Positions 24,762 through 40,658 of a stretch of 41,622 nucleotides of DNA are shown here, in pieces (position 1 is the stretch's first letter; the number at the start of each line of letters is the position of its first letter). The stretch spans positions 1 through 41,622 of the forward strand of contig NZ_LIPT01000020.1 of NCBI RefSeq assembly GCF_001418225.1, given 5' to 3'. The stretch is from Pannonibacter indicus. Its GTDB lineage: Bacteria; Pseudomonadota; Alphaproteobacteria; Rhizobiales; Stappiaceae. The notes below the pieces were generated by a model. The model made no database searches and had not been told where the DNA came from. It saw only the letters and a program-made list of their open reading frames with translations. The position numbers and the translations under genes were made by a program.

Positions 24762-27371
24762 ATGAGTACGCAACCCGCCCACGGCCTTCCTGCATCACGG
24801 CTGTTCAGATGGACCGGTGAATTCCGGAACCGTGAGCAGGAAGACGCCTATTGCACGGCGTCTCTCCGCGAGACGCTGGGGACGGCCAAACTCTGCGTCG
24901 GGGCAACAACGATAGCCAGTCTGGCCTTCGCGCCGATGGATATCATGATGCTTGAGGAGCCGCGCCTGCTGCTCTTTCTTGGCATCCGGGCGGTTCTGGG
25001 CGTGCTCTGTGTCGTGGTGCTCTACTTTCTGGTCAAGGCGGAAAACCATCACCGGATCGTTGTGCTGACCTATGCGCATATCCTGCCGTTCTTCTTTCTC
25101 AATGCGCTGATTTTCGACCATCCGGCGCTGACCCGCCATGGCGGTCTGCTGCTGCCGCTGATCGCCATGTCCATGGCAATGTATCTGCCTGGGCGCTTCC
25201 GGGTTGTGGCACTGACCAGCGCCTATGCGCCGCTGGTCAGCCTGCTGTTCTGGGGCGTGTTGCGGCCGCAGCCTGAAACGCCGCTGGATCTGGCCTCCAT
25301 CGTCCTGGTGATCACGGTGGCTTACGTGGCGGGCAGCGTGGCCAGAGTGCAGCTGAACAGGATGCGCCGCGAGGAGTTTCTGCATATCGAGCGGGAGCGG
25401 CAGATCAATGAGGAGCTGCGCCAGGCCAAGGACGCGGCGGAGGCCGGTGCCCGTGCAAAGGCTGACTTCCTTGCAGTCATGAGCCATGAGATCCGCACGC
25501 CTCTCAATGGCGTGCTTGGCATGGTGCGGCTGGCGCAGGCCGAAGAGTTGCCGCCGGTCGCCCGCACGCGGCTGGAAATCCTGCAGCAATCCGCCGAGGC
25601 TCTGGCCACCATTCTGGATGACGTGCTGGACCTGTCCAAACTGGAGACGGGAACGGCGGAACATGAAAATGTGCCGCTGGACCTGCATCAGATCCTCAAG
25701 GATGTGGTGACGCTGGTCAGTTCCAAGGCGCAGGAGAAGGGGCTTTCCGTCCGTCTGGATTTCCATCCCGATGTGCCGCGCAAGGTGATGGGGGATCCGG
25801 CAAGGCTGCGCCAGATCCTGCTCAATCTGGCCGGCAATGCGGTGAAGTTCACGGAGCAGGGCTTTGTCACCATTACGGTGGACCTGCAGGGGCAGCTGTC
25901 CGGCGGAACACAGGCGGGCTGCGGGATTCTGCCGCTGCGCTTTTCCGTCCGGGATACGGGCATCGGCATTTCGGAGGAAGAGATGCCTCGCCTGTTCCAG
26001 CCCTTCTCGCAGGCCGATGCTTCGATCCGCCGCCGCTATGGCGGCTCGGGGCTGGGCCTTGTCATCTGCCGCCGGCTGGCCGAGGCCCTGGGCGGCAGCA
26101 TCTCAGTGACCAGTATCAAGGGAGAGGGCAGCTGTTTTCAGCTCAATCTGCCCATGGCACGGGCGCCTGAAGGAGCGCTGGAGGCAGCGGCAGCAGAGCT
26201 GGGTGCCGGCACTCATGCCGGGCTGGTGCCGCTGCACAGCCTGGCGATCCTTCTGGTGGAGGACAATCCGGTGAACCAGCTGGTCGCCAGCGGGTTGCTG
26301 GAACGCGAGGGGCATGCCTGCACTGTGGCAGACAGCGGCGAGGAGGCACTGAAGCTGGTGCAGGCACGGCCCTTTGATGTGGTGCTGATGGACCTGCAGA
26401 TGCCGGGCATGGACGGATATGAAACCTGCCGCGCCATCCGGGCGCTGGGCGGGGCCTTCCGCCATCTGCCCATCATCGCGCTGACGGCCAATGCGCTTCC
26501 GGAGGACCGCCAGCGGTCGCAGGAGGCGGGCATGGACGGGCACCTGGAAAAGCCAGTGCGGCCGGAGATTCTGAACGATACGCTGCACCGGGCCGCCAGC
26601 CGCAGACAGGCGCAGGAGCGCTCCTTGGCGGAGCGGCGGCCCATGCGGCCGCTCAACATCCTGCCGGGTGCCGATATTCTGATTGCAGGTGACGTTCCCC
26701 CCGGCCTGCCCGAGGGCCTCACGGGCCTTGGTTACCGCGTGTTTCCGCTCCCGGACATCAAGGCAGCCCAGCATATCCTGGCTGTCCGGCCGTTTCCTGT
26801 GATGATCCTCTTCCCATGCCGCATGGGCGATGTGGCGGCGGCGCAGAAGCTTTGTGAAGGCGGCATGCAGCTGGTTATCTGCGCTTGCGGGCCTGCGGCG
26901 CTGGATGAACTGCAGCGGCTTGGGGCCGACGCGGTCTTCGATTGCGGCCGTGCGGAAGGCAAGCGCGTGCAGAATCTGGCTGAAGACCTGGGGCAGATGC
27001 TGAGCGGCCCTGTGGTGTCCGGGGAGGCGGAACATATGGTCACAGCCCCAGCCCAGCTTCTGGGGCCTGACCGGCTTGCGCAGCTCAAAATCCTGTTCCT
27101 TGAGAACTTGAAGGAGCAGCTTCAAGCTTTGCGTAAGGCGGATGGTGATAGCGTGAAACTGCAGCGTGTTGCTCACCGCGTGAAGGGCAGTGCGGCCAAC
27201 ATGGGTTACACTGGCCTTCAGCATGCTGCCGGGCTCTTGTTGACAGAAAGAACCGCGCCAAGTAACGGCGCTATTGAGAAGCTTTCAACTGCACTTAGTG
27301 CGGCGATTGCAGAGCTTGAAACGAATACAGGCGCCAAGGCAACTGAAGCGCCCGGGAAGACAGCACGCTGA
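24762..27371 (+). CDS. Hybrid sensor histidine kinase with receiver, pseudo-receiver and Hpt domains (TorS-like)
   Basis: An 869-residue phosphorelay kinase. An N-terminal membrane domain of about six helices covers residues 40-195 with almost no periplasmic loop. A short coiled linker (EEFLHIERERQINEELRQAK) leads to HisKA with H242 in MSHEIRTPLN. The ATPase domain shows NLAGNAVKFTE, DTGIGI and GGSGLGL. A receiver at about 505-620 has phosphoacceptor D544 in VVLMDLQMPGMDG and the lysine in LEKPV. Residues about 626-740 look like a second receiver fold lacking its Asp (VMILFPCRMGD). A C-terminal Hpt has H805 in VAHRVKGSAANMG. The stop overlaps the response-regulator start, so the two form one relay. 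The stimulus is unknown. Confidence 0.9.
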   Translation: MSTQPAHGLPASRLFRWTGEFRNREQEDAYCTASLRETLGTAKLCVGATTIASLAFAPMDIMMLEEPRLLLFLGIRAVLGVLCVVVLYFLVKAENHHRIVVLTYAHILPFFFLNALIFDHPALTRHGGLLLPLIAMSMAMYLPGRFRVVALTSAYAPLVSLLFWGVLRPQPETPLDLASIVLVITVAYVAGSVARVQLNRMRREEFLHIERERQINEELRQAKDAAEAGARAKADFLAVMSHEIRTPLNGVLGMVRLAQAEELPPVARTRLEILQQSAEALATILDDVLDLSKLETGTAEHENVPLDLHQILKDVVTLVSSKAQEKGLSVRLDFHPDVPRKVMGDPARLRQILLNLAGNAVKFTEQGFVTITVDLQGQLSGGTQAGCGILPLRFSVRDTGIGISEEEMPRLFQPFSQADASIRRRYGGSGLGLVICRRLAEALGGSISVTSIKGEGSCFQLNLPMARAPEGALEAAAAELGAGTHAGLVPLHSLAILLVEDNPVNQLVASGLLEREGHACTVADSGEEALKLVQARPFDVVLMDLQMPGMDGYETCRAIRALGGAFRHLPIIALTANALPEDRQRSQEAGMDGHLEKPVRPEILNDTLHRAASRRQAQERSLAERRPMRPLNILPGADILIAGDVPPGLPEGLTGLGYRVFPLPDIKAAQHILAVRPFPVMILFPCRMGDVAAAQKLCEGGMQLVICACGPAALDELQRLGADAVFDCGRAEGKRVQNLAEDLGQMLSGPVVSGEAEHMVTAPAQLLGPDRLAQLKILFLENLKEQLQALRKADGDSVKLQRVAHRVKGSAANMGYTGLQHAAGLLLTERTAPSNGAIEKLSTALSAAIAELETNTGAKATEAPGKTAR

Positions 27372-28057
27372 TGACCGCAACAGTCCTTGTCGTTGAAGAT
27401 GCCCCCGAAAGCCTAGAGATGATTTCCGGCTTCCTCAAGGATAATGGCATGACGGTGATCGCTGCGCGCAGCGGTGCAGATCTGCGGGCCCGGTTGCAGG
27501 GTTTGCAGCCGGATATCATCCTGCTCGATGTCAATCTGCCAGACGAGGACGGCATCGAACTGGCGCGGCAGCTGCGCCTCGGCGAGCGGTTCGGTCTCAT
27601 CTTCGTCACGGGGCGGGATTCCGATGATGATGTTCTGGCCGGGCTCGATGCGGGCGGGGATGACTATGTCACCAAGCCGATCAACCTGCGCACGCTGCTG
27701 GCCCGCATCCGCAGCGTGCTGCGCCGCTCGCGCGAGCCGGTGATCACCTTTGACGGGTGGATCCTGGACGTGGTGCGCCGCGAATTGTTCCGCCCCAACG
27801 GTCAGCTGGTGGAGCTGACGGCCGGTGAGTTCAATATTCTCGTGGCGCTGGCCTCCCGCCAGATGCAGCCGCTGAGCCGTGATTTTCTGCTGGATGTGAT
27901 TTCCAACCGCGACCCGCGCGATATCAGCGGCCATACGGTGGATAATCTCATCGCGCGCCTGCGCAAGAAGATGCAGCATGAAGGAAAAGACGCGCCGATC
28001 GTCACCATCCGCGGTGTCGGCTATGCGCTGATGCCCTCGCAGCACAAGGTGGACTGA
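27371..28057 (+). CDS. OmpR/PhoB-family response regulator (TorR-like)
   Basis: A 228-residue response regulator. The receiver domain (residues 1-115) has the acidic pair in VVEDAPES, phosphoacceptor D53 in IILLDVNLPDEDG, conserved Thr/Ser in FVTGRDS and Lys in YVTKPI. The C-terminal winged helix (about 125-225) contains LTAGEFNILVALASR, the recognition region DISGHTVDNLIARLRKKM and the wing IVTIRGVGYALM. The start overlaps the kinase stop in a TGATG arrangement (27371), so stoichiometry is coupled. The next genes are convergent GNATs of the RiPP cluster. Whether this pair controls the cluster is open, and no operator repeat was recognised. Confidence 0.92.
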   Translation: MTATVLVVEDAPESLEMISGFLKDNGMTVIAARSGADLRARLQGLQPDIILLDVNLPDEDGIELARQLRLGERFGLIFVTGRDSDDDVLAGLDAGGDDYVTKPINLRTLLARIRSVLRRSREPVITFDGWILDVVRRELFRPNGQLVELTAGEFNILVALASRQMQPLSRDFLLDVISNRDPRDISGHTVDNLIARLRKKMQHEGKDAPIVTIRGVGYALMPSQHKVD

Positions 28058-28108: not shown

Positions 28109-29125
28109 TCAATCGAGCAGAGGCTTGTGGCTTTCCAGGATGCTGTCGGCCCACATGGCATAGGGGCGGAAGCGGCGGTCGAGAAGGCGGCAGACCTTGG
28201 CGCCTTCCGTTGTGGTGGGCTGCAGGATGAGGCTGGACTGGGGGCCGCGTATCTCTTCCAGCCGGGCCAGAAGCTCACCCATCCCGGCAATCAGAGCAAC
28301 ATGCCAGTGGACGGACGGCGACAGCCAGCCGCAGGGCAATGTCCAGCGCCCGGGCGCCGAATGATGTTGCGCCAGAAGCCAGCCCAAAGGCTCTCCGGCG
28401 GTATCGAGCAGGACTTGCGAAACTTCCCGGTCCAGCCCCTCCTGCCACAGCTGCGGATCGGCCCAGGCGGGCGGGGCGTGCAGGGCGGTGAGCCGGGCCG
28501 TGGCGGCGGAAAGGCCTGCCTCCTCGCGAGCGTCCAGACTGGCCAGAGATTTCAGAACGAGGCCCCGGCGCTGAAGCTGCTGCATCAGCAACCCGTGCTG
28601 CGGCAGGGCATCGTGCCTTTCGCCTACGTGAAAGGCCATGCGCAGCCGCGCCTTGGCCGCAGGCTGCCAGCCGGAGGCGGTCAGCAGACCGGCGAAGGCC
28701 TCGCCCTGCGGCAGCCGTTCGGACCATTGGGTGGCGAGCTGCGTGCGCCCTTCCGCCTTCATTCTTGCGGCAAAGGCTTCCAGCAGGCGGAGCGCCAGAT
28801 GCCGGCGGCGCAGAAGCGGCAGCACCATCACGGACAGAAGCTCCTGCTCGCCGGGCACCATGCTGCTGCGCCGGGACAGTAGCAGTCCTGCGGGAATGTC
28901 GCCCAGCCACAGGCCGAGATGGCAGTAGCGGTCCTGCTCCGCGCCGGTGATCCCGTCACGCAGCGCCGGCGAAAGGCCCTGCGCCGTCAGCGGCGCGAAG
29001 CGGGGCAGGTCGTCCGGCCTGCAAGGTCTGATCTCAATCGGCTCCGTCAGATGCATCGATGGGGGCCTGGCTGGTGTCGGGGACATGCACGTGCTCACAG
29101 TGGTGTTGTACGGGCTCCGGAGCAT
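28109..29125 (-). CDS. Tandem-GNAT-like protein of the RiPP cluster, degenerate CoA loop (paralogue A)
   Basis: About 338 residues with an N-terminal GNAT fold (IEIRPCRPDDLPRFAPLT, then GLWLGDIPAGLLLS and LLSVMVLPLLRRRHLALRLL) and a second, looser half (QVLLDTAGEPLGWLLAQHHS, WTLPCGWLSPS). It aligns along its length with the upstream gene product. The CoA pyrophosphate loop that reads QWRGRG in that paralogue is LLRRRH here (about residues 104-109), losing both glycines. It may be a catalytically altered acyltransferase or a scaffold partner. Its ATG directly abuts the stop of the upstream gene (TGAATG). Starts at 29086 or 29056 are also possible and would align better with the paralogue. GNAT-like enzymes are the acylating maturases of NHLP-type lipopeptides (selidamides). 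Confidence 0.75.
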   Translation of the reverse strand: MLRSPYNTTVSTCMSPTPARPPSMHLTEPIEIRPCRPDDLPRFAPLTAQGLSPALRDGITGAEQDRYCHLGLWLGDIPAGLLLSRRSSMVPGEQELLSVMVLPLLRRRHLALRLLEAFAARMKAEGRTQLATQWSERLPQGEAFAGLLTASGWQPAAKARLRMAFHVGERHDALPQHGLLMQQLQRRGLVLKSLASLDAREEAGLSAATARLTALHAPPAWADPQLWQEGLDREVSQVLLDTAGEPLGWLLAQHHSAPGRWTLPCGWLSPSVHWHVALIAGMGELLARLEEIRGPQSSLILQPTTTEGAKVCRLLDRRFRPYAMWADSILESHKPLLD

Positions 29126-30082
29126 TCAGTCTGCGCTGAATATGTATTCGCTCTCGAAGAGATAATCGGTGGAAGCTGTGTGGCTGCCGAAGTGCTTGTA
29201 GAGCATCTGCTCCATGCCGCCGGGCACATCGGCGGGCGGTTGGCAGATGAGGAGGGTGTCGGGCCCGGCCTCTTTCTCCAGCACCTGCACCAGCCGGGCA
29301 ATGCCGCCCAGAAGCCAGCCCTGCTGGATCCGCTCGGGCACGACCCAGCCCTGCGGAATATACCAGCGCTGGAAGGCGGATTGCTGCACGCACACAAGCC
29401 AGCCCTGCACCGCGCCCGTTCCATCAAACAGGATCTGGCTCAGGCCTGCCCCTTCGCTTTGCGCCCAGTATGCGGGATTGGACCATTCCGGGGCGCGTCC
29501 CTGCGCAATCAGGTCCTGCCCCTCCTGCACAAGCTGCCGGCGTCCGGCGTCATCCAGAGCGTCGAGGCGGGTGCAGCGCAGCCCCTTGGCCTCCAGCCGC
29601 GTGAGGATACGGTCGCGCGAGGGAAAGCCTTTGGGCCAGTCACGAATGCGCCAGGACATGCGGCGGCGCGAGACTTCGGGCTGGCCCCATCCGGAGGAGG
29701 CCAGCAGCCGGGCAAATTCGGCTGCGCGCGGCAGGCGGCTGGACCAGCGGGCATAGATGCCGCGCCGCCCGCCCTTGCGCAGGATCTGGCTCAGCCGGGC
29801 CAGCAGCATCATGGCGATGCCCCGGCCACGCCACTGTGGTGCCACCATGATGGAGGTGAGCTCCTGCAGGCCGCCTTCGCCAGCACAGGAGAGGATCAGT
29901 CCGGCGGGCTCATCGCCGATGAAGGCGGCAAGGCGCAGCACACGCATGTCCTCCACGGGTGCGGCAAGCATCCACTGCAGCGCGCCTGCGGTCAGCGCGG
30001 CAAGGGCCGGTGCTTCTTCGGGTCTGGTTTCGCGGATCTGCGGCACATGCGTCTCCAGATCCTGTGCTGTCATGGTGTCCAT
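29126..30082 (-). CDS. GNAT-family acyltransferase, candidate RiPP maturase (paralogue B)
   Basis: A 318-residue GNAT-like protein. The N-terminal GNAT domain has strands and loops AAFIGDEPAGLILS and ELTSIMVAPQWRGRGIAMMLL. The acyl-CoA motif Q83-W-R-G-R-G88 is intact. The C-terminal half mirrors that of its neighbour (LSQILFDGTGAVQGWLVCVQ, WYIPQGWVVPE). The start at 30082 is chosen because GGCAGG precedes it by 5 bases and it aligns with the domain. The open frame extends 95 codons further through the divergent promoter. It is transcribed away from the NHLP precursor gene across a 262-base gap. By analogy with selidamide pathways it would acylate a lysine or ornithine side chain of the precursor core. 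The acyl chain length cannot be read from sequence. Confidence 0.82.
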   Translation of the reverse strand: MDTMTAQDLETHVPQIRETRPEEAPALAALTAGALQWMLAAPVEDMRVLRLAAFIGDEPAGLILSCAGEGGLQELTSIMVAPQWRGRGIAMMLLARLSQILRKGGRRGIYARWSSRLPRAAEFARLLASSGWGQPEVSRRRMSWRIRDWPKGFPSRDRILTRLEAKGLRCTRLDALDDAGRRQLVQEGQDLIAQGRAPEWSNPAYWAQSEGAGLSQILFDGTGAVQGWLVCVQQSAFQRWYIPQGWVVPERIQQGWLLGGIARLVQVLEKEAGPDTLLICQPPADVPGGMEQMLYKHFGSHTASTDYLFESEYIFSAD

Positions 30083-30344
30083 TCGGGCCTGCCGCCATAG
30101 ACCGGCCGCCCCGCGGCAGCCCGGTTTGTCTGCCCTCTTACTAGCGCAGGCGCGGCGGTTTGTTTTGGCACTTTTGAGGTCCAATCCGTCTCTGTGCCAT
30201 CCGCCGCGCCTATAACAGCGATCAGATGATTTCTGCACTCTGGGCGCCTTCCGAGGGCCCTGAAGCCCGGCATGCAGGATGACTGCTTGGCCCGCCGCAA
30301 CGGCAGGCCCCTGATTGTCTTTCCAACGCAAAGGCGGAGTGAAA
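30083..30344. promoter_or_regulatory. Divergent promoter region between GNAT maturase genes and precursor gene
   Basis: A 262-base gap holding the promoters of both arms of the RiPP cluster. On the plus strand a -10-like TATAAC lies at 30211-30216 with no convincing -35 at 17 bases. The precursor's ribosome site is GGCGGAG at 30334-30340. An in-frame TTG at 30315 would add 10 residues but has no ribosome site. I recognised no operator palindrome. Confidence 0.45.
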
Positions 30345-30692
30345 ATGTCCCACGTTCCCGATCCCATGACGCAGGCCCGTCAGCATATCGAGCGCGCGCT
30401 GATCGAGCAGGCGCAGTCCGACGAGGCCTTCCGCAAGCTGTTGCTGCAGGACCCGCGCGCGGCGCTGAAGCAGCTGATCGGCGTCGATCCGATCCCCGGT
30501 TTCAAGATCCGTGTGCTGGAAGAAGTGCCGGGCGAAGTGGTTCTGGTGCTGCCGCGCGCCATCGCGCAGGACGAGCTTCCGGATGAAATGCTTGACTATG
30601 CAGCCGGCGGCTCCGAGGGCAACCCCTGCCCGGACCCGCGCGGCGGACAGCGCGGCACCATCGTCAAGATCCGTCCTGCGTCCAGCAACTGA
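30345..30692 (+). CDS. NHLP-family (nitrile hydratase-like leader) RiPP precursor peptide
   Basis: A 115-residue precursor. The leader (residues 1-89) resembles the alpha subunit of nitrile hydratase: IERALIEQAQSDEAFRKLLL, QDPRAALKQLIGVDPIPGF, then the strand-rich IRVLEEVPGEVVLVLPRA. It ends in DELPDEMLDYAAGG, a double-glycine site for a C39 peptidase. The predicted core is residues 90-115, with one Cys (C95), three Arg (R99, R103, R110) and a single Lys (K108) in GTIVKIRP. A second Gly-Gly at 100-101 (DPRGG) could give a 14-residue product. It should not be taken for a nitrile hydratase, since it has no metal motif and is too short. It is divergent from two GNAT genes and precedes a dedicated exporter. 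Lysine acylation is the favoured hypothesis. Confidence 0.9.
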   Translation: MSHVPDPMTQARQHIERALIEQAQSDEAFRKLLLQDPRAALKQLIGVDPIPGFKIRVLEEVPGEVVLVLPRAIAQDELPDEMLDYAAGGSEGNPCPDPRGGQRGTIVKIRPASSN

Positions 30693-30715
30693 CGGAAGCT
30701 TTCTTCTCCTTCGTT

Positions 30716-30782
30716 ATGGCCGGGCTTGTCCCGGCCATCTGCAAATCATTGATTTGTGTAGATCCTCGGCACAAGGCCGAGG
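30716..30782. repeat. REP pair (BIME-like) after the precursor gene
   Basis: Two hairpins: ATGGCCGGG-CTTGT-CCCGGCCAT (30716-30738) and CCTCGGC-ACAAG-GCCGAGG (30764-30782). The loops CTTGT and ACAAG are reverse complements, so the two units are in inverted orientation, as in a bacterial interspersed mosaic element. The first is a very common alphaproteobacterial intergenic palindrome. Located 24 bases after the precursor stop, it probably protects the short precursor mRNA or ends it. Confidence 0.75.
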
Positions 30783-30860
30783 AGGACGATGGAGAGGCTG
30801 AAGGGTTGTCAGCAAACTCAGGCGCCGGCCGTCTGGCTGGCGCCCTTTCTATGTCTGGAA

Positions 30861-31874
30861 TCAGACAGTGGCGAGCAGGTAAGCAAAGTTGCCGGTCAGC
30901 CAGATGTCCATCGCGTCCCAGGCGCTCTGCCGGACTTCGATGTCGCGGCCGCCGCGTGCGTGCAGCTGAACGAGGCCCAGCGTTTCGGCCTGTTCCATCA
31001 GCAGGCGGGCGTGGGTTCTGGAAATGCCGGCATGCTCGGAGATGGATTCATAACCCATCTGGATGCGGCTGCTGCCGGTCTGGGCAGCCTCATGCAGCAG
31101 CATCAAAAGTGTAAGGTAGCCGCCGTCCCGCTCTGCCAGCGCCGAAATGGACCGGTGCTGCATCCGCATGCCGAAGTAATCCTGCAGCAGGGGGGCAAAG
31201 CTGCGGCGCCAGTTGCGGTGGCCTGCCGTTGCCGGGGCGATGCTGCGCTCCGACCAGGCCGGTGCCATCGGGTCGGCATGCTGGTGCAGGCTGCCATTTG
31301 CCTCGCCACTATGGCTGAGACGTGCCAGAAGCTGGCTGGCTCCAGCAGACGTTTCTTCCTGGCCCTGCTCCCGGCACAGGGGAGACAGGTGCATTTCAGT
31401 GAAAAGCGCATCGGCGGACCACATGCGGGCTGTCGGCATCAGGATGCTGATCCGCAGATCCTCTTCAGCCTTGCGCCGCTCGATGAAGCCATAGCGCTCG
31501 AAAATGGCCACCAGCGCTTCGATCCGGTTGCGGCTTGTCAGGCCCGACGAGGAGAGGCGCGCCTGAAGGCGCCCGAGTGTCAGCCAGCTGTCCCGGTCTT
31601 CCGGGTTCTGGGCGGCGCTCAGGCACAGGATGGCCTGAAACACCATGAAGCGGCCTTCCTCCAGCATCAGCCGTGCCAGCAGATAGTCACCGCGGAAGAG
31701 GGACACGAGGTTCTGGATAACGGCGTCGCGGACGGGGGGCGTGATGACCTGCTGCCCGGCGTTGAGGATCTCAAGAGCTGCAGCGTTCTGAGGCTCCGTG
31801 CCCTCCCACAGGCATCCAGCCGCGGCACGGATCGTGCCCGGAACAAGGTGCTTGAGAGGGGCTGCAGCATTCAT
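30861..31874 (-). CDS. Putative regulator with two winged-helix domains
   Basis: A 337-residue protein I do not recognise as a named family. Two winged helix-turn-helix-like regions can be seen: around DSWLTLGRLQARLSSSGLTS with RIEALVAIFERYGFIERR near the middle, and ESISEHAGISRTHARLLMEQ with AETLGLVQLHARGGRDIEV near the C-terminus. Between and before them lie helical segments without membrane spans. The start at 31874 follows GGAG by 8 bases. The frame continues upstream for 42 codons to a TTG with no ribosome site. It is divergent from the export operon over an AT-rich 435-base gap and convergent with the precursor gene, so a role as cluster regulator is the simplest inference. A replication-initiator-like origin of the double-wHTH layout cannot be excluded. 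Confidence 0.6.
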   Translation of the reverse strand: MNAAAPLKHLVPGTIRAAAGCLWEGTEPQNAAALEILNAGQQVITPPVRDAVIQNLVSLFRGDYLLARLMLEEGRFMVFQAILCLSAAQNPEDRDSWLTLGRLQARLSSSGLTSRNRIEALVAIFERYGFIERRKAEEDLRISILMPTARMWSADALFTEMHLSPLCREQGQEETSAGASQLLARLSHSGEANGSLHQHADPMAPAWSERSIAPATAGHRNWRRSFAPLLQDYFGMRMQHRSISALAERDGGYLTLLMLLHEAAQTGSSRIQMGYESISEHAGISRTHARLLMEQAETLGLVQLHARGGRDIEVRQSAWDAMDIWLTGNFAYLLATV

Positions 31875-32309
31875 CAGGTGATCTCCAGACCGGCTTCCGC
31901 TGATCAGCACCTTGCGCTTGGCAAAGGCTTCGACGATCGCACGTACTCTGTCCGATATTGATACCACGTAATTTGATGTGCTGAAGTAGTGGAATATCAA
32001 TGGCCGTTGATCTATGGCTTATTCGATTTTATTTCATATATATCTATTCTTGTGATCTTTGATATTCTTTTGTATCTAAGTATTTTTTATTTGTTTTTGT
32101 TCAATTTTCAGATGATTTTTTGCCGACTTTAATAGTTTTTCCTGCTTGTTTTCGATGTGTGTTGAACGCCGCCGGGATTGCCAGTGCCTGCTCTTTGATG
32201 CTGGATGCGGCTGGCGTTTTTTGGGTGCTTTCGGGGTTGCTCCGCCGCCGGGTGTTACGTGTTTGGGGAATGTGGGGCTGGTATGTGGCGTGTCGGGCGG
32301 CTTGGAGTG
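31875..32309. promoter_or_regulatory. AT-rich divergent intergenic region upstream of the export operon
   Basis: A 435-base gap. The part from about 31960 to 32155 is strikingly AT-rich against a GC-rich surround, with long T runs (for example TATTTTTTATTTGTTTTTGTT near 32079, broken here). GAATATCAA (31992-32000) and TTGATATTC (32059-32067) form a 9-bp inverted repeat separated by 58 bases, possible sites for the adjacent regulator. No gene is seen in it. AT-rich promoters like this are typical targets of nucleoid-associated silencers and of transferred DNA. Confidence 0.55.
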
Positions 32310-33848
32310 ATGCATAAGGGGATTTCGCTCCCGCTTGCCGGGGTGAGGCGCGCAGGGGCTGTGGGGCTTCTGGGTGCTCTGCTGTCCGGCTGCGCGCTGG
32401 TGGGCAATCCGCTTGTGCCGTCCGATGATTTTTATCCAGCGATGCCGTCCGCCTATATCCATCAGGACCCGCGCAGTCAGGCGCTGATGCGTGCACCGGT
32501 TGCCGCGCCTGCGTTCTGGGCGGCCTTTGGCTCGCCGGAGCTTGCCGCGTTCGTTTCCCGTGCCGAAGAGGGGAGCAAGGATATCGCAGCTGCGATTGCC
32601 CGCGTCCGTCAGGCAGAATGGGGTGCGCTGCAGGCCGGAACGGGGCTGCTGCCGTCGGGAGCGCTCAGCGGAACGGCAACGGCCTACCGGTCATCCGCCA
32701 CGGCGGCGGGGCTGGAAAGTGGACGCCTGCCGCAGCAGCAGCTGCGCCGTGCGGGCCTGTCTGCTTCCTGGGAACTGGACTTCTGGGGCAAGAATGCCGC
32801 GCTCTACTCCGCCGCCGCCCGCCGTGAGGAGGCGGGTGTCTTCGCGCTTGCCGCAACACGCTTGGCTGTGACGGCGGAAACGGCGCAGACCTATGTGACG
32901 GTGCTCTCCCTGCGTGACCGGCTGGCGATTGCGCGGCAGAACCTCACGCTTGCCCGCAAGGTGATGGACAGCATCCGCGAGCGGGTGGAGGCAGGTTCTG
33001 CCACACAGGTGACGCTGGCTCAGCAGGAAACCGTGGTGCGCCAGCAGGAGGCCGCGATCGTCAGCCTCAGAAGGTCGGCGTCGCAGGCGGAATTGTCGCT
33101 GGCGCTGCTCGTGGGCACCCGACCGGGGGAGGTCCGCCTTGGCAAGGGCGGGCTGAAGGGCCTGAAGCTGCCGCCTCTGACCGCCGGGCTGCCCTCGGAT
33201 GTGCTGAGCCGCCGGCCGGACGTGCGTCAGGCCGAAGCGCAGATTCTGGCTGCCTCGCAGGATGTGGGTGCTGCCCGGGCGGCGATGCTGCCCAGCCTCA
33301 GTTTCTCGCTGCAGCGCGGCTTCGAGAGCTTGACCACGAGCACGCTGATCTCTCCCGCTTCCGGCGTTGCCAACTTCACCAGCCAACTGACCCAGCCACT
33401 TTTCGATGCGCCCCGGCTGGCGGCGCAGATGAAGGGGGCCGAGGCCCGGCGGGAGGAGTTGATTGCCACCTACGAACAGGCGGTTCTCTCCTCCCTGTCC
33501 GATGTGGAGAAGGCGCTGGTGGCGCTGAACACGAGCGGGGAGGAGCTGGCAATTGCCGGAAAGGCCGTGGATGCGGCGCGCCGGGCCTATGAGCTGACAC
33601 AGGAGCAGCTGGAGGCGGGGCAAGTGGACATGACGACGGTGCTGAACACCCAGCGGGAATATTTCTCCGCCTCTGACAGTCTGGAACAGCTGCGCCTTGC
33701 GCGCTTCCAGGCCGCAATCGCGCTTTACCGGGCGCTGGGCGGGGGATGGTCGCCGGAAGATGCAAGGCTGCTGATGCAGCCGAAGGAAACGCCGTCCGCA
33801 AGCGGAACGAAGACCGTAGCCGCCGCAAGTGCGGCTGCGGCGCAGTAA
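32310..33848 (+). CDS. NodT/TolC-type outer-membrane efflux lipoprotein of the RiPP exporter
   Basis: A 512-residue outer-membrane factor. The signal peptide ends in the lipobox LLSGC, with C28 as lipidated residue if translation starts at 32310 (GGAG at 32304). A start at 32283 is also possible. Two OEP domains follow: SPELAAFVSRAEEGSKDIAAA, then SWELDFWGKNAALYSAAARRE and VSRRPDVRQAE-type LSRRPDVRQAEAQILAAS in the second. C-terminal LEAGQVDMTTVLNTQREYFSASDSL (read in two parts) is typical of NodT proteins. Alanine-rich tail. It provides the outer-membrane tunnel for the HlyD/ABC exporters encoded just downstream and is the first gene of their operon. Confidence 0.88.
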   Translation: MHKGISLPLAGVRRAGAVGLLGALLSGCALVGNPLVPSDDFYPAMPSAYIHQDPRSQALMRAPVAAPAFWAAFGSPELAAFVSRAEEGSKDIAAAIARVRQAEWGALQAGTGLLPSGALSGTATAYRSSATAAGLESGRLPQQQLRRAGLSASWELDFWGKNAALYSAAARREEAGVFALAATRLAVTAETAQTYVTVLSLRDRLAIARQNLTLARKVMDSIRERVEAGSATQVTLAQQETVVRQQEAAIVSLRRSASQAELSLALLVGTRPGEVRLGKGGLKGLKLPPLTAGLPSDVLSRRPDVRQAEAQILAASQDVGAARAAMLPSLSFSLQRGFESLTTSTLISPASGVANFTSQLTQPLFDAPRLAAQMKGAEARREELIATYEQAVLSSLSDVEKALVALNTSGEELAIAGKAVDAARRAYELTQEQLEAGQVDMTTVLNTQREYFSASDSLEQLRLARFQAAIALYRALGGGWSPEDARLLMQPKETPSASGTKTVAAASAAAAQ

Positions 33849-33863
33849 GAGAAGGCAGGGGCC

Positions 33864-35168
33864 ATGTCATCGCAACCGAGCCCGGCGCCGCAGGAAGGCG
33901 CGCCCAATCCGGCAAACCGTCTGTTCCGGCAGGCCGCGCTCGACCGGCTTTCTTCTCCCGAGCAGCTGGACCAGCTGATCTCGCTGACGCGCCCGCGTGA
34001 TCTTCTGGCCATGCTGACGCTGTTTGCCCTCATTGCGCTGGCGATTGGCTGGTCCATTCTGGGGCGTGTGCCCGAACGGGTGAAAGGCTCCGGCATTCTG
34101 ATCGCCACGGGCGGACGTGTTGTCGATGCGGTGGCAACGGGCGATGGCACGCTGACGGATATTCTGGTGGAGGTCGGCGGCGGCGTGCAGCAGGGGCAGG
34201 TGGTGGCGCGGGTGATCCAGCCCGCCCTGCGCCAGCAGCTCGACAACATCAACGCGGTGATTGCGGAGCGCAAGGCGCTTCTGGAGGAACTGAAGGGGCA
34301 GGTGGCGGAGCGCACCCGTGCCGCCGATCAGACGCAGGCCGCCCGCGTCAACGCCCTGACCATGCGTGTCAGCGATGCGCAGGAGCGGGTGCGGGTGCTG
34401 GACGAGCAGGAAAAGCGCGATACGGCGCTGTTCGACCGGCGGCTCATCACCTGGCAGCAATTGCTGGAAACCCGCAGGGCGCTGGCCGAGGCGCGGCAGA
34501 GCGAGCTCGAAGCGCGCAGCCAGATCTCGCAGGTGGAAAGCGACGCCATCGTGCAGCGCAATTCCAACGACCGGGACATCCGCTCCTCCGAGGAGCGGCT
34601 GGCAGATGCAGAACGGCAGAAGGCCGAGCTGGAAATCCAGCTGCGCCAGCAGGAAACCATCACCAGCCCGGCAAGTGGCCGCGTGGTGGAATGGAAGGCC
34701 GTGCCCGGCACCCGCATCGCGCCGGGGCAGGCGCTGCTGAGCATCGAGAGCGGGGCGGCCGGGCTGGAGCTTCTGCTGTACCTTCCGCCCAATGATGGCA
34801 AGCGCGTGGTCTCCGGCATGCCGGTGCAGATTGCACCCTCCACGGTGCGGCGCGAGGAATATGGCATGATGGAAGGCACGGTGGCAGCGGTCTCCGACTT
34901 CCCCACCACGGCACAGGCGATGCAGGCCATCCTGCGCAATGACCAGCTGGTGCAGAGTTTCTCGTCCAAGGGCGCGCCCTTTGCCGCGCGGGTGCTGCTG
35001 ACACCGGACGCCAATACGCCGAGCGGATTCGCCTGGAGCGGCGGTTCCGGGCCTGAGCAGCAGTTCAGCAGCGGCTCGATGGCGGAAGCGGAAGTGACTG
35101 TCGCCTGGCGGCGCCCGATCAGCTACGTCATTCCCTGGCTGCGCAAGGTCTCGGGGCTGGCAGGGTGA
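33864..35168 (+). CDS. NHLP bacteriocin system secretion protein (HlyD-family adaptor)
   Basis: A 434-residue periplasmic adaptor. A cytoplasmic N-terminus of about 45 residues (NRLFRQAALDRLSSPEQLDQ, LISLTRPRDLL) is the hallmark of HlyD proteins of NHLP systems. One membrane helix lies at about residues 47-66, followed by a lipoyl-like segment (VVDAVATGDGTLTDILVEVG, GGVQQGQVVARVI). A long coiled coil covers about residues 120-260. The return half-lipoyl is TSPASGRVVEWKAVPGTRIA with a beta-barrel region after it. It links the inner-membrane ABC exporters with the NodT-type tunnel. It lies 15 bases after the outer-membrane gene and its stop overlaps a possible GTG start of the next gene. Confidence 0.9.
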   Translation: MSSQPSPAPQEGAPNPANRLFRQAALDRLSSPEQLDQLISLTRPRDLLAMLTLFALIALAIGWSILGRVPERVKGSGILIATGGRVVDAVATGDGTLTDILVEVGGGVQQGQVVARVIQPALRQQLDNINAVIAERKALLEELKGQVAERTRAADQTQAARVNALTMRVSDAQERVRVLDEQEKRDTALFDRRLITWQQLLETRRALAEARQSELEARSQISQVESDAIVQRNSNDRDIRSSEERLADAERQKAELEIQLRQQETITSPASGRVVEWKAVPGTRIAPGQALLSIESGAAGLELLLYLPPNDGKRVVSGMPVQIAPSTVRREEYGMMEGTVAAVSDFPTTAQAMQAILRNDQLVQSFSSKGAPFAARVLLTPDANTPSGFAWSGGSGPEQQFSSGSMAEAEVTVAWRRPISYVIPWLRKVSGLAG

Positions 35169-35176
35169 GCGGCCGC

Positions 35177-37351
35177 ATGAGCACGGATACGCCCCCCAAA
35201 CCCGCAAAGCGCCGCCGCAAGGCCACGCCGTCCATCCTGCAGATGGAGGCGGTGGAATGCGGTGCGGCCAGCCTTGCCATGATCCTGGCTCACCATGGTG
35301 CCTGGATTCCGCTGGAGCAGCTGCGCGTTGCCTGCGGCGTTTCGCGCGATGGCTCCAAGGCCAGCAGCCTGCTGAAAGCTGCCCGGCAATATGGCTTCAC
35401 CGCCAAGGGCTTCCGCAAGGAGCCGGAGGCGCTGACCGATCTGCCCTGGCCCGCCATCCTGCACTGGAACTTCAACCACTACGTGGTTTTCGAGGGCATG
35501 ACGGAGACCCATGCCTATATCAACGATCCGGCGCTGGGGCCGCGTGTCATCACCCGTGAGGAGCTGAGCGAAGCCTTCACCGGTGTGGTCCTGACCTTCG
35601 AGAAGACGGATGCCTTCCGCAAGACGCGCAAGCCCGAGGGGCTGCTGTCCGCCTTCCGCGCGCGTGTCTCGTCGTCCCATGGGGCGCTGTGGCTGATCGG
35701 ACTTCTGAGCCTTGCGCTCGTCATCCCCGGTGTGGTGCTGCCGGTCTTCGCCAAGATCTTCGTCGATGGCATCCTGATGCAACAGCAGGAGCATCTGACG
35801 CGCCCGCTGCTGATTGCGCTGGGTCTGACGGCCCTGATCAAGACTGGCCTCACATGGCTCAGATCCTCGCTGATCCTGAGATTGCGCACCAAGCTGACGA
35901 TTTCCGGCGCGGGCGCCTTCGTCTGGCGGGTGCTGCATCTGCCCATGTCCTTCTTCTCCCAGCGCAGTGCCGGTGAGATTGCGTCCCGCGTCGAGGCGAG
36001 CGAGCGGGTGGCGGAGGTCATCTCCGCCGACATGGCCAATGCGGTGCTGAACTGGGGCACGCTCGTCTTCTTTGCCGTGGTATTGGTCAGCTACGATCCG
36101 GTGCTGGGTGCGCTGACCATTGCGCTCAGCCTTCCGAATCTCGTGGTGCTGCGCGTGGTGCAGGAGCGGTTGAAGCAATCCTCCATCCGCCTTGCCGTGG
36201 AGCATGGTAAACTTGGCGGCACTACGGTTGGCCTGATCTACAACATTGAGACCATCAAGGCCTCGGGCCTTGAAACCTCCTCCTTCGGGCGCTGGGCCGG
36301 CATTCATGCAAGGCTGCTCAATGCGGTGCAGGAATCGGGCTCGCGGGCGCTGATCACCTCGCTGGCCCCGGCGCTGCTCACCGGCCTGGTGGATGTGGCC
36401 ATTCTGGGGGCTGGCGCCTTCCGCGTGATGCAGGGCGCGATGACGCTGGGCGATCTCGTGGCCTTCCAGCTTCTGGCCGCCAGCTTCTCCGCGCCGCTCG
36501 TCAGCCTCGTGGCCCTGTCGCCGAAGCTTGCCAACATCCGGGCCGATCTCAACCGTGTCGATGATGCCATGCGCAACCAGCCCGATCCGCTGACGCAGAG
36601 CCCGGCCGGTGGCGCCTCCCGGCTGATGAGCGGCGCGCTGGAAGTGGATGCCATCCGCTATGGCTACAATCCGCTGGATGAGCCGCTGTTCGAGCGCATT
36701 TCTCTGTCCGCCCGTCCGGGGGAGCGCATCGCCCTTGTCGGCCGCTCGGGCTGCGGCAAGTCCACGCTGGGGCGGCTGATCTGCGGGCTTGTGGCGCCCT
36801 GGGAAGGGGAAATCCGCCTTGATGGCGTGCCGCTTTCCCAAATGGACCAGTTTCAGCGTGCAGCCAACATTGCCTATGTGGATCAGGACATCTTCCTCTT
36901 TGAAGGCACCGTGCGCGAAAACCTGACGCTCTGGAACCCGGATGTGCCGGATGATGCCATCACCCGGGCGCTGGAAGACGCGGCGGTCCTCGATGACATC
37001 GTGTCGCGCCCCGGTGAACTCGATGCCCATGTCGAAGAGGGCGGGCGCAACTTCTCCGGCGGCCAGCGCCAGCGGCTGGAACTGGCCCGTGCCCTTGTCG
37101 GCGACCCGGCCATTCTGGTGCTGGATGAAGCCACCGCTGCCCTCGATCCGCAGACGGAAAAGGCCATCGATGACAACCTGCGCCGCCGCGGCTGCACCTG
37201 CATCATCATCGCCCACCGGCTCAGCACCGTGCGCGATTGCTCGGAGATCATCGTGATGGAGCGGGGCGAAATCGTCGAGCGCGGCACCCATGACAGCCTG
37301 ATGGCCGCCAATGGTGCCTATGCGGATCTCATCCAGACGGGGGCGCAGTGA
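35177..37351 (+). CDS. NHLP-family peptide export ABC transporter: C39 peptidase/permease/ATPase
   Basis: About 724 residues. The N-terminal C39 double-glycine peptidase has C28 in QMEAVECGAASLAM, H101 in WNFNHYVVFEG and D117 in INDPALG, a complete catalytic triad. A six-helix exporter domain follows (about 160-440), then an ATPase with Walker A GRSGCGKSTL, signature FSGGQRQRLELARAL, Walker B ILVLDEATAALD and H-loop IIIAHRL. It should cut the precursor after the leader Gly-Gly and pump the modified core out. The ATG at 35177 has GGGTGAG upstream. A GTG at 35165, overlapping the HlyD stop, is the alternative. Confidence 0.94.
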   Translation: MSTDTPPKPAKRRRKATPSILQMEAVECGAASLAMILAHHGAWIPLEQLRVACGVSRDGSKASSLLKAARQYGFTAKGFRKEPEALTDLPWPAILHWNFNHYVVFEGMTETHAYINDPALGPRVITREELSEAFTGVVLTFEKTDAFRKTRKPEGLLSAFRARVSSSHGALWLIGLLSLALVIPGVVLPVFAKIFVDGILMQQQEHLTRPLLIALGLTALIKTGLTWLRSSLILRLRTKLTISGAGAFVWRVLHLPMSFFSQRSAGEIASRVEASERVAEVISADMANAVLNWGTLVFFAVVLVSYDPVLGALTIALSLPNLVVLRVVQERLKQSSIRLAVEHGKLGGTTVGLIYNIETIKASGLETSSFGRWAGIHARLLNAVQESGSRALITSLAPALLTGLVDVAILGAGAFRVMQGAMTLGDLVAFQLLAASFSAPLVSLVALSPKLANIRADLNRVDDAMRNQPDPLTQSPAGGASRLMSGALEVDAIRYGYNPLDEPLFERISLSARPGERIALVGRSGCGKSTLGRLICGLVAPWEGEIRLDGVPLSQMDQFQRAANIAYVDQDIFLFEGTVRENLTLWNPDVPDDAITRALEDAAVLDDIVSRPGELDAHVEEGGRNFSGGQRQRLELARALVGDPAILVLDEATAALDPQTEKAIDDNLRRRGCTCIIIAHRLSTVRDCSEIIVMERGEIVERGTHDSLMAANGAYADLIQTGAQ

Positions 37352-37358
37352 GGCGGAC

Positions 37359-40055
37359 ATGACGCAAGGCTCCCATCCCGCTCTGACCTCTGGCGCTTAC
37401 CTGCCCTCCGGCAGTGCCCATCCGCATGTGCTTGATGACCCGGCACAGTGGATCCTCATCGAGCGCGGCTATCTCGACGTGTTCGCCGTCTTCGGCGCGC
37501 CGCTGGAAGGCCGCCGCCTGTTCCTGTTCCGGCTGGAAGAAGGGGCGCTTGCGCGTGGCATCGCCGCTGCTGCGCTGAGCGATGGCCGCAGCCTGGCCCT
37601 TGTTGGCGTTGGCGGTGCGGACAGTGCCTTGCGCCTCTGTGCCCCCGGCGAGCCGGTGGCCGCAGAAGCGGTGCAGCGCTGGCAGGAGGTTCTGGCCCAG
37701 ACTGCGGACCTGCCGCCGGTGCCTGATGACGCCGCAGACGGCGTTGAACGCTGCGACGCCGTGCTGCTGCTGGCGCTGGCCAACAGCCTTGCCGAACGCG
37801 AAGCCTTGCGCAGCCAGCACGACTGGCGCAGCGAAAGGCGCAAGCTGGGCGAAGCGCGCAAGACGCAGGCTCTTTCCGAACTCGCCTCTGCTGCTGCCGG
37901 GCACGCAATCGAGGCGGCCGTTACTCCGGCCGCCGCCGAAGATCCTGATCCGCTGCGCTCCAGCCTGTTGCGCATCTTTGGCGCCTTGAAGGTTGCGCCG
38001 AAGCTGGAGGCCTTCGAGACGCCGGGCGGGCTTGAGGAGGGGCGCAGCCGCCTCGACATCATCGTCTCGCGCCACCAGATGACCCGGCGCACGGTGCTGC
38101 TGCGGCCCGGCTGGACGCTGCTGCCCGGCCTGCCGCTGATCGGCTTCATGGGGGAAGAGCGCCGCCCCGTGGCGCTGCTGTTCCGCAAGGGGCGCTGGCA
38201 TGTGCATGACGGCCCGCGTGTGACGCCGATTGCCAGCGACGGCGCGGAAGGCAGCGGCACCACCGGCCTTGCGGCCGATGCCGTGCAGATCTATCCGGCG
38301 CTGCCCGCCAGATCCCTGCGCTTCCGTGACCTCTTTGCCTTCGGCTTCGCCAGCCTTGCGGTGGACCGGGTGCGGCTGGTGCTGCTGATGCTGGCCGCCG
38401 CCATTCTGGCAACGCTGGTGCCCTATGGCTCGCGCTTCCTTGTCAGCGACGCGATCCCCTATGCCAATCTCAACCTCACCTGGGTGATCATCGGCGGTTT
38501 GCTGGCCGCAGCGCTGGCCCGGGCGGTGTTTGATGCGGGCAAGGGCCTGACCATGCTGCGCTCCGAACTGGGCTTTGAAAGCCGGCTGCAACCGGCGATG
38601 CTGCTGCGTCTGCTGCGGCTGCCGCCCGCCTTCTTCCGCCGCTATGCGGTGGGCGACATTTCCGACCGTGTGCTCGGCATTCAGGCCGCACGCGAGGTGA
38701 TCACCTCCAGCTTTACGAGCGCGGCGGCGAGCAGCGTGTTCTCCATCATCAGCCTCGTGCCGATCCTCACGGTGGACAAAAGGCTGGCGCTGATCGTGCT
38801 TCTTCTGGCGGTGTTCATCGGGCTTATCAACGTGGCGATCAGCTACCGCGCGCTCATTCACGAGCGCCAGCGCATGGCGCTGAAGGGGCGGATCGAGAGC
38901 CTCGTGGTGCAGATGCTGATGGGCATCACCAAGCTCAAGGCCTCCGCCAGCGAGGCGATGGGCTTTGGCCGCTGGTCGGGCCTTTTCGCGCAGAACATGC
39001 GCCACTCGGTGAGGGCCGGGCGCTGGACCAATCTGCAGGGCGCAGCCGATGCCCTCCTGCCGCAACTCGCCACCATCGTGCTCTATGCCATGATCCTCTA
39101 TTTCCTGAAGGCGGACATGGAGAAGGCAGCGAGCGGCGGCGATGCTGGCAAAGGCTTCTCGCTGGCCGATTTCATCACCGTCTCGACGGCCTTTGCCCAG
39201 GTGCTTGGCGGCATTTCGGCGCTGGCCGGGGCGCTGATCCAGTCGCTTTCTGCGGTGCCGCTGATCGAGCGTGCCGGGCCGATCATCGAGGCCGTGCCGG
39301 ATGCTCCGCCGCCGGAAAGCCGCCCGGTGAAACTGTCTGGCGCCATCGACATCCGCAATGTCTCCTTCCGTTATTCGGAGAAAGCCCCGCTGGCGCTCAA
39401 CGAGCTGAGCGTGCGCATCGGCAAGGGCGAGTTCGTTGCCATCGTCGGGGCATCGGGCTCCGGCAAGTCTACGCTCCTGCGGCTGCTGCTCGGCTTCGAC
39501 CGGCCGGAGCTGGGCGACATCTTCTTTGATGGCCATTCCCTCAGCCGGCTGGATCTGGCGCAGGTGCGCCGCCAGATCGGCGTGGTGCTGCAGCATGGCC
39601 GCATCATGGCCGGCAGCATCCATGACAACATCTCCGGAGAGAGCGGCCTCGGCATGGATGCCTCGCTGGAGGCGGCGAAGATGGTCGGCCTCGACAAGGA
39701 CATCGAGCAGATGCCCATGGGCCTGCACACGGTGATGCTGGACGGCGGCGGCACGCTGTCGGGCGGCCAGCGGCAGCGCATTCTTCTGGCGCGGGCGCTG
39801 ATCAGCAAGCCGGCGGTGCTGTTCCTCGATGAGGCGACAAGCGCCCTCGACAACCGCACGCAGGCCATCGTCACCGAAACCCTGCAGCGGCTGCCGGTGA
39901 CAAGGCTCGTCATCGCCCACCGGCTCAGCACCATCGAAAGCGCCGGCCGCATCATCATGCTGGACAAGGGCCGGGTGGTGGAGACCGGAAGCTACGCCGA
40001 ACTCATGGCACTCAATGGACATTTTGCGGCGCATGCCCGCCGCCAGCTGGTTTGA
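37359..40055 (+). CDS. NHLP-family export ABC transporter permease/ATPase without peptidase
   Basis: An 898-residue exporter. The first roughly 320 residues are a non-membrane domain special to these NHLP proteins (SAHPHVLDDPAQWILIERGY, then VFAVFGAPLEGRRLFLFRLE, and a LVGVGGADSALRLC segment). It has no C39 catalytic residues. The membrane domain covers about residues 335-640 and the ATPase follows: Walker A GASGSGKSTL, signature LSGGQRQRILLARAL, Walker B VLFLDEATSALD, H-loop VIAHRL. It probably pairs as a heterodimer with the peptidase-bearing exporter. The start at 37359 sits 7 bases after the previous stop, with AGGCGG upstream. The N-terminal domain may sense substrate, since its fold resembles cyclic-nucleotide-domain strand patterns. 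Confidence 0.92.
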   Translation: MTQGSHPALTSGAYLPSGSAHPHVLDDPAQWILIERGYLDVFAVFGAPLEGRRLFLFRLEEGALARGIAAAALSDGRSLALVGVGGADSALRLCAPGEPVAAEAVQRWQEVLAQTADLPPVPDDAADGVERCDAVLLLALANSLAEREALRSQHDWRSERRKLGEARKTQALSELASAAAGHAIEAAVTPAAAEDPDPLRSSLLRIFGALKVAPKLEAFETPGGLEEGRSRLDIIVSRHQMTRRTVLLRPGWTLLPGLPLIGFMGEERRPVALLFRKGRWHVHDGPRVTPIASDGAEGSGTTGLAADAVQIYPALPARSLRFRDLFAFGFASLAVDRVRLVLLMLAAAILATLVPYGSRFLVSDAIPYANLNLTWVIIGGLLAAALARAVFDAGKGLTMLRSELGFESRLQPAMLLRLLRLPPAFFRRYAVGDISDRVLGIQAAREVITSSFTSAAASSVFSIISLVPILTVDKRLALIVLLLAVFIGLINVAISYRALIHERQRMALKGRIESLVVQMLMGITKLKASASEAMGFGRWSGLFAQNMRHSVRAGRWTNLQGAADALLPQLATIVLYAMILYFLKADMEKAASGGDAGKGFSLADFITVSTAFAQVLGGISALAGALIQSLSAVPLIERAGPIIEAVPDAPPPESRPVKLSGAIDIRNVSFRYSEKAPLALNELSVRIGKGEFVAIVGASGSGKSTLLRLLLGFDRPELGDIFFDGHSLSRLDLAQVRRQIGVVLQHGRIMAGSIHDNISGESGLGMDASLEAAKMVGLDKDIEQMPMGLHTVMLDGGGTLSGGQRQRILLARALISKPAVLFLDEATSALDNRTQAIVTETLQRLPVTRLVIAHRLSTIESAGRIIMLDKGRVVETGSYAELMALNGHFAAHARRQLV

Positions 40056-40072
40056 ACTGAGGACGGATTTTC

Positions 40073-40594
40073 ATGCGCAAGGTTCTTTACATACTGGGTC
40101 AGCTGGATGACGCGGACATCGCCTGGATGGCCCAGACCGGCGAGCGCCGGACCGTGGCTGCGGGCGCCGTGCTCATTCAGGAAGGCCGCGCCACGGCCGA
40201 TCTCTTCATCGTGCTGGACGGGCAGGTGGATGTGCAGGTGACCGGTGTCGGCACCGTCGCCAGCCTGTCGAGCGGCGAAATCCTCGGCGAAATGTCATTC
40301 GTCGACAAGGCGCCGCCCTCGGCCACCGTCGTGGCCGCCCGCGACACCCGTGTTCTGGCACTTGAGAAGCGCAGCATCGAGCAGCGGCTGGAGGAGAATG
40401 CAGCCTTTGCCGCCCGCTTCTACAAGGCGCTGGCCGTGTTTCTGGCCGACCGCCTGCGCACCACGACCCTGCGCGGCAAGGGCGGCGGCGGCCAGGCCGA
40501 GGACGAGCTGGACGACATGGTGCTGGACGGGGTTTCCATGGCCGGGCTCCGTTTCCAGCACCTTCTGGAAATCCTGAACGGCGGCAACGGCTGA
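40073..40594 (+). CDS. Cyclic nucleotide-binding-domain protein of the NHLP cluster
   Basis: A 173-residue protein made of a CNMP-binding beta barrel (about residues 10-115): VAAGAVLIQEGRATADLFIVL, DGQVDVQVTGVG, the phosphate-binding-cassette-like LSSGEILGEMSFVDKAPPSATVVA (read in two parts) and FYKALAVFLADRL helices. The cassette's usual Arg after GE-(x)-(A/S) is absent, with PPSATVVA in its place, so classical cAMP binding is doubtful. There is no DNA-binding helix-turn-helix, unlike CRP. Such stand-alone domains recur at the end of NHLP export operons and may act on the exporter's N-terminal domain. It is the last gene before a strong terminator. Confidence 0.85.
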   Translation: MRKVLYILGQLDDADIAWMAQTGERRTVAAGAVLIQEGRATADLFIVLDGQVDVQVTGVGTVASLSSGEILGEMSFVDKAPPSATVVAARDTRVLALEKRSIEQRLEENAAFAARFYKALAVFLADRLRTTTLRGKGGGGQAEDELDDMVLDGVSMAGLRFQHLLEILNGGNG

Positions 40595-40615: not shown

Positions 40616-40658
40616 AGAAAAAAAAGGCCGTGCAGAGGTGGGTCTGCACGGCCTTTTT
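40616..40658 (+). terminator. Rho-independent terminator of the RiPP export operon
   Basis: GGCCGTGCAGA (40626-40636) pairs perfectly with TCTGCACGGCC (40643-40653) around a 6-base loop, followed by TTTTTGG and preceded by an A8 run, so it can work in both directions. It lies 32 bases after the last gene of the operon. Confidence 0.93.

Follow-up and report, generated by a model that had tools for sequence, protein, structure and literature searches.

Two tandem GNATs, a C39 export line and a dispersed family of single-cysteine precursors in Pannonibacter: a putative acylated-peptide system

The closest described systems to the locus reported here are the selidamides, namely kamptornamide, phaeornamide and the nostolysamides, with the enzymes KspN, PhaN and NpuN (PMC9505594, PMC13060382). 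They combine a nitrile hydratase-like leader peptide (NHLP) or a Nif11 leader, a GG site, a GNAT enzyme and a C39-type exporter (PMC9505594, PMC13060382). The characterised members are lanthipeptides acylated on ornithine, hydroxyornithine or lysine. NpuN places fatty acids onto Lys1 of a Nif11-leader precursor, and its authors describe it as a tandem GNAT whose N-domain alone has a clear P-loop (PMC13060382). The same paper reports clusters of an NpuN-related GNAT, an NHLP or Nif11 precursor and a transporter in which a lanthionine synthetase is not always present, so that a GNAT/NHLP cluster lacking this enzyme is already in print. Our subject is such a locus in the window, the 41,622-base stretch that makes up the entire contig C20 of a Pannonibacter genome (G000). 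It shares the leader type, GG site, GNAT enzymes and exporter of the selidamides, but has paired GNATs, many precursors, an invariant core cysteine and no LANC-like protein.

We propose that the GNATs acylate the peptide core on cysteine and/or a nearby lysine before export by the C39 protein, a reading to which we assign a probability of roughly 0.6. The linkage of GNATs, precursor and exporter in one locus (Table 1) supports it. The genes and coordinates given in an earlier note on this DNA are all borne out, and of the NHLP precursor and export line that it described, the precursor, HlyD, C39-ABC and NodT score above cut-off with TIGR03793, TIGR03794, TIGR03796 and TIGR01845 respectively; gene calling followed a simple composition rule. 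The window precursor consists of a leader (30345-30611), with its GG site at 30606-30611, and a core (30612-30689), SEGNPCPDPRGGQRGTIVKIRPASSN. The core has one cysteine codon (30627-30629) and one lysine codon (30666-30668). This lysine is kept in the four Pannonibacter counterparts of the core, and the ratio of nonsynonymous to synonymous substitution rates (dN/dS) of the precursor is 0.15 in a pairwise comparison with P. phragmitetus. The label 'selidamide-like', proposed at the outset, is reasonable, while membership is unproven: as in the selidamides, the locus pairs a tandem-GNAT enzyme with a precursor of NHLP or Nif11 type, here NHLP, and the lanthionine synthetase of the characterised lanthipeptide members was not found in the five Pannonibacter genomes.

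The precursor of the window belongs to a dispersed family. The NHLP leader model gives 11-13 matches per Pannonibacter genome (n = 5), part of them weak, and 18 loci yielded 52 parsed precursors, 40 of which fall in the window's class by their leader end. Genomes G000 to G004 thereby hold at least 7, 9, 7, 9 and 8 class precursors respectively, counts that are lower bounds because only fetched loci were read; the earlier note had seen a single precursor. The TIGR03796 exporter has one match in each of the five genomes (E-value limit 1e-120). In G001, G003 and G004 the precursor arrays come after the GNAT pair, with the exporter some 13-20 kb away from this region and intervening genes that are mostly chemotaxis-like by inspection at the loci read (G001 and G003); G004 has one further class member about 850 kb distant on the same contig. 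In G000 and G002 the arrays sit on other contigs among ordinary genes.

All 40 Pannonibacter class cores (36 unique) contain exactly one cysteine and the 12 other Pannonibacter NHLP cores contain none, the two groups having been defined on the leader with no use of the core. Rhizobium sp. RU36D and a Rhizobium metagenome-assembled genome have the same kinase-regulator-GNAT-GNAT-precursor layout, and their two loci add 13 one-cysteine cores and one cysteine-free core of another subtype. Together, 49 of 49 unique class cores from Pannonibacter and the two Rhizobium loci carry exactly one cysteine; where a locus had no clear GG, and for some of the RU36D precursors, the core start is the analyst's judgement. 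When 25 cysteines were dealt at random over the 581 residues of 25 core families, each family being represented once under a stricter clustering rule, one cysteine in every core was reached in 0 of 200,000 permutations (mean 9.4, maximum 21). A looser clustering, in which one cluster took 73 of 80 cores and 5 representatives were left, reached it in 6995 of 200,000, a result that is not significant and is uninformative. The invariant core residue is the single cysteine, not lysine or ornithine: lysine occurs in 46 of the 49 class cores and varies in number and place, three cores lack it (VSFSSFVDYSTLLRASPNTRACPR is the lysine-free core of one class precursor), and six have neither serine nor threonine. 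Other NHLP precursors with cysteine-free cores stand in tandem with no recognised maturase on contig C17 of G000 (L049 8839-10308) and in relatives.

How is the cysteine connected with the GNATs? GNAT homologues were found in all five Pannonibacter genomes, with two matches each, and in 0 of 32 genomes of the family's other genera (a genus-level search made as one draw) and 0 of 24 other genomes of the order searched. Relatives adjoin Nif11 or NHLP precursors in several genera of other Alphaproteobacteria. A GNAT tree of 34 rows, rooted at the midpoint for display, places GNAT1 and GNAT2 as two seven-member clades on one branch (support 100/99), and the next clade to join this branch (99/99) has a GNAT that adjoins NHLP precursors in four genomes of genus g102 and in Shinella H4-D48. 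All six cores of this sister clade start with xxFxxF, end in KP[AR][KR], lack cysteine and have an invariant lysine four residues from the end. The 17 class cores that begin with xxFxxF, a pattern picked after inspection of the cores, all have their cysteine within the last four residues. On the tree the cysteine label takes two changes and the lysine label three. On another branch, G788 and G802, with one GNAT match each, have seven cores that all hold one cysteine and no lysine, and Ensifer PDNC004 has two GNATs, three one-cysteine Nif11-leader cores and one cysteine-free core. Other GNAT relatives go with lysine only, two Nif11 loci of g102 being mixed. Over 80 unique GNAT-linked cores (84 rows), collected by GNAT or leader similarity and thus not a random sample, 61 have one cysteine, 19 none and 0 two; lysine or cysteine is present in 79, and one core has neither.

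Some loci fell outside these counts. G796 and contig C12 of G355 have a GNAT and no callable precursor; the precursor loci of Rhizobium SSA_523 and Tistrella, with no GNAT among the annotated features, were excluded from the set, as were the long Nif11 cores of Mesorhizobium loci that also carry radical SAM enzymes. An internal TGA was flagged in four g102 genomes, of which a wider profile flags one (G355), and open frames of 316-341 residues are found at all four loci. Genome G000 itself has a second locus of this general kind on contig C23 (L127 5806-7555), where a 333-residue GNAT and two precursor-like genes, with the lysine-containing, cysteine-free cores MLVPSYKFTTPKHTPENSVTIGR and SSHQKLHLAIKSDGDRRHV, are adjoined by C39-ABC-like and ABC-like genes. 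Short Nif11-type cores at L128 7864-9121 and L136 8109-9214 and 14681-15055 have one cysteine and no lysine (7/7) beside a single GNAT, and are perhaps the cleanest substrates on which to test thiol acylation. On a plasmid of Microcoleus vaginatus PCC 9802, a cyanobacterial GNAT relative (L138 8275-9181), split across two overlapping frames in that record, lies near HlyD- and C39-like frames.

The two enzymes of the window are related, sharing a fold. Both AlphaFold2 models are tandem GNATs (mean pLDDT 83.1 for GNAT1 and 87.9 for GNAT2), the fold reported for NpuN. The top Foldseek match in the PDB is for both 2wpw, a tandem GNAT of the clavulanic-acid pathway (E-values 7.8e-14 and 9.9e-14, 12-14% identity). 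GNAT1 matches PF00583 and is 92% identical to that of P. phragmitetus DSM 14782; GNAT2 found no match in either Pfam or NCBIfam at E 0.1 and shares 31-36% identity with GNAT1 and its orthologues. Both are under purifying selection (pairwise dN/dS against P. phragmitetus 0.18 for GNAT1 and 0.22 for GNAT2). The P-loop of GNAT1 is intact, and that of GNAT2 reads RRRHLA in the window, RRQHLA in P. phragmitetus and RRQG[LI]A in five other orthologues. Because a histidine replaces the P-loop glycine of GNAT2, two equal maturases, as first supposed, are doubtful, and GNAT1 is likely the catalytic acyltransferase.

That the GNATs are the only linked candidate maturases was upheld by Pfam scans and genome profile searches. 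LANC-like proteins (PF05147) were matched in 0 of 5 Pannonibacter genomes, with 1 of 14 control genomes matching, and SPASM domains (PF13186) in 0 of 5, with 8 of 14 controls matching. We rejected a lanthipeptide on the LANC result and on the 6 of 49 class cores without serine or threonine. A linked radical SAM or YcaO enzyme was likewise discarded, with none among the 28 window proteins scanned with Pfam (a subset of the open reading frames), as was a maturase beside the distant arrays: ten neighbours of the G000 precursors on contigs C4 and C19 included no known maturase, two of the ten having no family match, and the neighbours of the array on C22 of G002 look similar by inspection. YcaO occurs once in every Pannonibacter genome, away from the GNAT locus. 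In thiazole/oxazole peptides this enzyme is encoded with the precursor. One multinuclear non-heme iron-dependent oxidative enzyme (MNIO; PF05114) per genome is also placed away from the GNATs. The PF12640 profile, which we take to be the peptide-arginase model, had no match in the five genomes, and this shows no absence of an arginase because the control genomes were silent too.

In the mechanism that we envisage, the NHLP leader would dock the precursor, and one or both GNATs would transfer an acyl group, probably of fatty length and donated by acyl-CoA or acyl-ACP, to a core side chain, the invariant cysteine and/or a neighbouring lysine. Action on the leader-bearing precursor is suggested because NpuN was co-expressed with its precursor. 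The C39-ABC protein would then cut after GG and, together with HlyD and NodT, export the product. All 7-9 class precursors found in a genome may be served by this one set of GNATs and exporter, in trans where the precursors are distant, with GNAT1 as the catalyst and GNAT2 as a partner or altered enzyme. The lysine-free cores and the lysine/cysteine exchange between sister clades favour an involvement of cysteine. A bolder version, for which our confidence from these sequences is low, holds that the two-GNAT branch moved the acyl acceptor from lysine to cysteine, giving S-acylation of the single core cysteine; the products, spread over some 25 core types of a combinatorial family, might then be exported thioesters or S-to-N shifted lipopeptides. 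Several observations count against the proposal. P. phragmitetus, RU36D and Ensifer each have one cysteine-free core at a two-GNAT locus, and one of these three cores lacks lysine as well. The P-loop of GNAT2 is altered, with glycine changed to histidine in this species. The donor is not fixed by the fold, because Foldseek also lists acetyltransferases and, for GNAT2, MprF and the aminoacyl-tRNA-dependent Sbb17. A second GNAT and cysteine are not strictly coupled: we had to give up the notion that two GNATs always mean cysteine, because G788 and G802 combine one GNAT with cysteine, and Shinella lacks the cysteine despite its two unlinked GNATs.

Three other explanations deserve weighing. The GNATs may form an ordinary selidamide system that acylates lysine only, the conserved cysteine having some other task, for instance in a disulfide-linked dimer or in binding metal once the peptide is exported. 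This is a real possibility, short of being probable, and it overlaps with the core-acylation reading. The precedent of NpuN and its Lys1 favours a lysine acceptor, and most class cores offer one, including the conserved lysine of the window core; against it stand the 3 of 49 class cores and the seven G788/G802 cores with one cysteine and no lysine, and it is the number of cysteines, not the number and place of lysines, that stays constant. The fold, common to acetyltransferases and listed alongside MprF and Sbb17 for GNAT2, would equally suit self-protection acetyltransferases or aminoacyl-type enzymes with an otherwise unmodified peptide. We regard this as unlikely, since in several genera members of this GNAT family again adjoin precursors with unrelated leader types, and the cores track the GNAT clade. 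Finally, the YcaO or MNIO enzyme that each of the five genomes encodes might modify the cysteine in trans, the former to a thiazoline, leaving the GNATs secondary. To this we give very little credence: at the YcaO loci read (G000, G003) and the MNIO locus read (G000) the enzyme adjoins a precursor-like gene of a different type, YcaO has an NHLP-model match no more than about 2 kb away in 4 of 5 genomes, and no link of either enzyme to the class arrays was seen. The YcaO neighbour on C14 of G000 (L086 7482-9460) and C23 of G003 (L088) is a precursor-like gene of 89-90 residues ending KALG[AI]CFY[DE]ILPE.

The core-acylation reading sets the Pannonibacter peptides apart from other lipidated or combinatorial families. 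In goadvionins, microvionin and lipoavitides, too, a GNAT acylates a ribosomal peptide (PMC13060382), but these are lanthipeptides of class III and carry the acyl group at the N-terminus. In Pannonibacter, leader removal appears coupled to export, so that the N-terminus of the core is unlikely to be free within the cell. Prochlorosin-type and NHLP combinatorial families likewise pair one enzyme set with many hypervariable cores (PMC2887384, PMC10783134) and use LanM or a cyclodehydratase, where Pannonibacter has GNATs only. The single-cysteine rule and the GNAT pair are absent from the main-text parts of PMC13060382 covered. In the open-licence PubMed Central literature searched we found neither paired GNATs, a dispersed precursor family or a single-cysteine rule, nor a report of an S-acyl bond made by a GNAT acting on a ribosomally synthesized and post-translationally modified peptide (RiPP).

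Table 1. Features of the GNAT-precursor-exporter locus in the window
Feature	Position	Strand	Evidence and remarks
Hybrid histidine kinase	24762-27371	+	Pfam; possible control gene
OmpR-type response regulator	27371-28057	+	Pfam; possible control gene
GNAT2, tandem-GNAT fold	28109-29125	-	P-loop Gly to His (RRRHLA); start codon uncertain
GNAT1, tandem-GNAT fold	29126-30082	-	PF00583 (Acetyltransf_1) 25.9 bits, cut-off 20.7; AlphaFold2 model, Foldseek; P-loop RGRGIA intact
NHLP precursor	30345-30692	+	TIGR03793 64.2 bits, cut-off 50.9
Conserved 379-residue protein, precursor-exporter interval	30861-32000	-	One sub-cut-off Pfam match, no NCBIfam match
NodT-type outer-membrane factor	32205-33848	+	TIGR01845 306.8 bits, cut-off 210.05
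NHLP-type HlyD adaptor	33864-35168	+	TIGR03794 304.4 bits, cut-off 156.2
C39 peptidase-ABC exporter	35165-37351	+	TIGR03796 972 bits, cut-off 853.3
Second NHLP-type ABC protein	37311-40055	+	TIGR03797 707.4 bits, just below cut-off 709.4
Cyclic-nucleotide-binding-domain (CNB) protein	40073-40594	+	PF00027; TIGR03896 143.7, below cut-off 161.05
Terminator hairpin	40621-40658		Folding: 16 base pairs

Among the remaining features, the kinase-regulator pair, which like the 379-residue protein is absent from the earlier note, adjoins the GNAT pair in all five Pannonibacter loci and, by inspection, in both Rhizobium loci. The 379-residue protein has an orthologue in P. phragmitetus at 92%, and its role as a regulator is a guess. 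Folding also bears out the terminator that had been noticed after the export genes. The hairpin is G+C-rich, with an A run on one flank and five U on the other, and might terminate transcription from either side. The folding z of the 171-nt stretch is -3.3. A simple consensus scan found the hairpin only in weak form, and its 8 sites against 9.8 in shuffles are no excess. Identical 341-bp inverted copies of a sequence read as IS3-type transposase occupy both contig ends (8-349 and 41281-41622), and copies of this element are the probable reason for the break in the assembly. A DUF3307 protein, annotated in Shinella (L094 17432-17770), neighbours the CNB protein of NHLP exporters, and look-alikes of its gene recur in genus g102 (L130 and L132).

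What are the implications of these GNATs and their cores? Few lipidated RiPPs are known, and little is understood of how their acceptors are chosen. Pannonibacter and its relatives provide a natural experiment in which related tandem GNATs work with the same leader type and the same core start, and have lysine or cysteine at the matching place. The natural lysine-free cores could reveal whether a RiPP GNAT acylates a thiol, and a pair of enzymes that comes with many natural cores would give a means of producing peptide lipids by recoding. The single cysteine found where relatives have lysine hints at an unusual attachment of acyl groups to ribosomal peptides.

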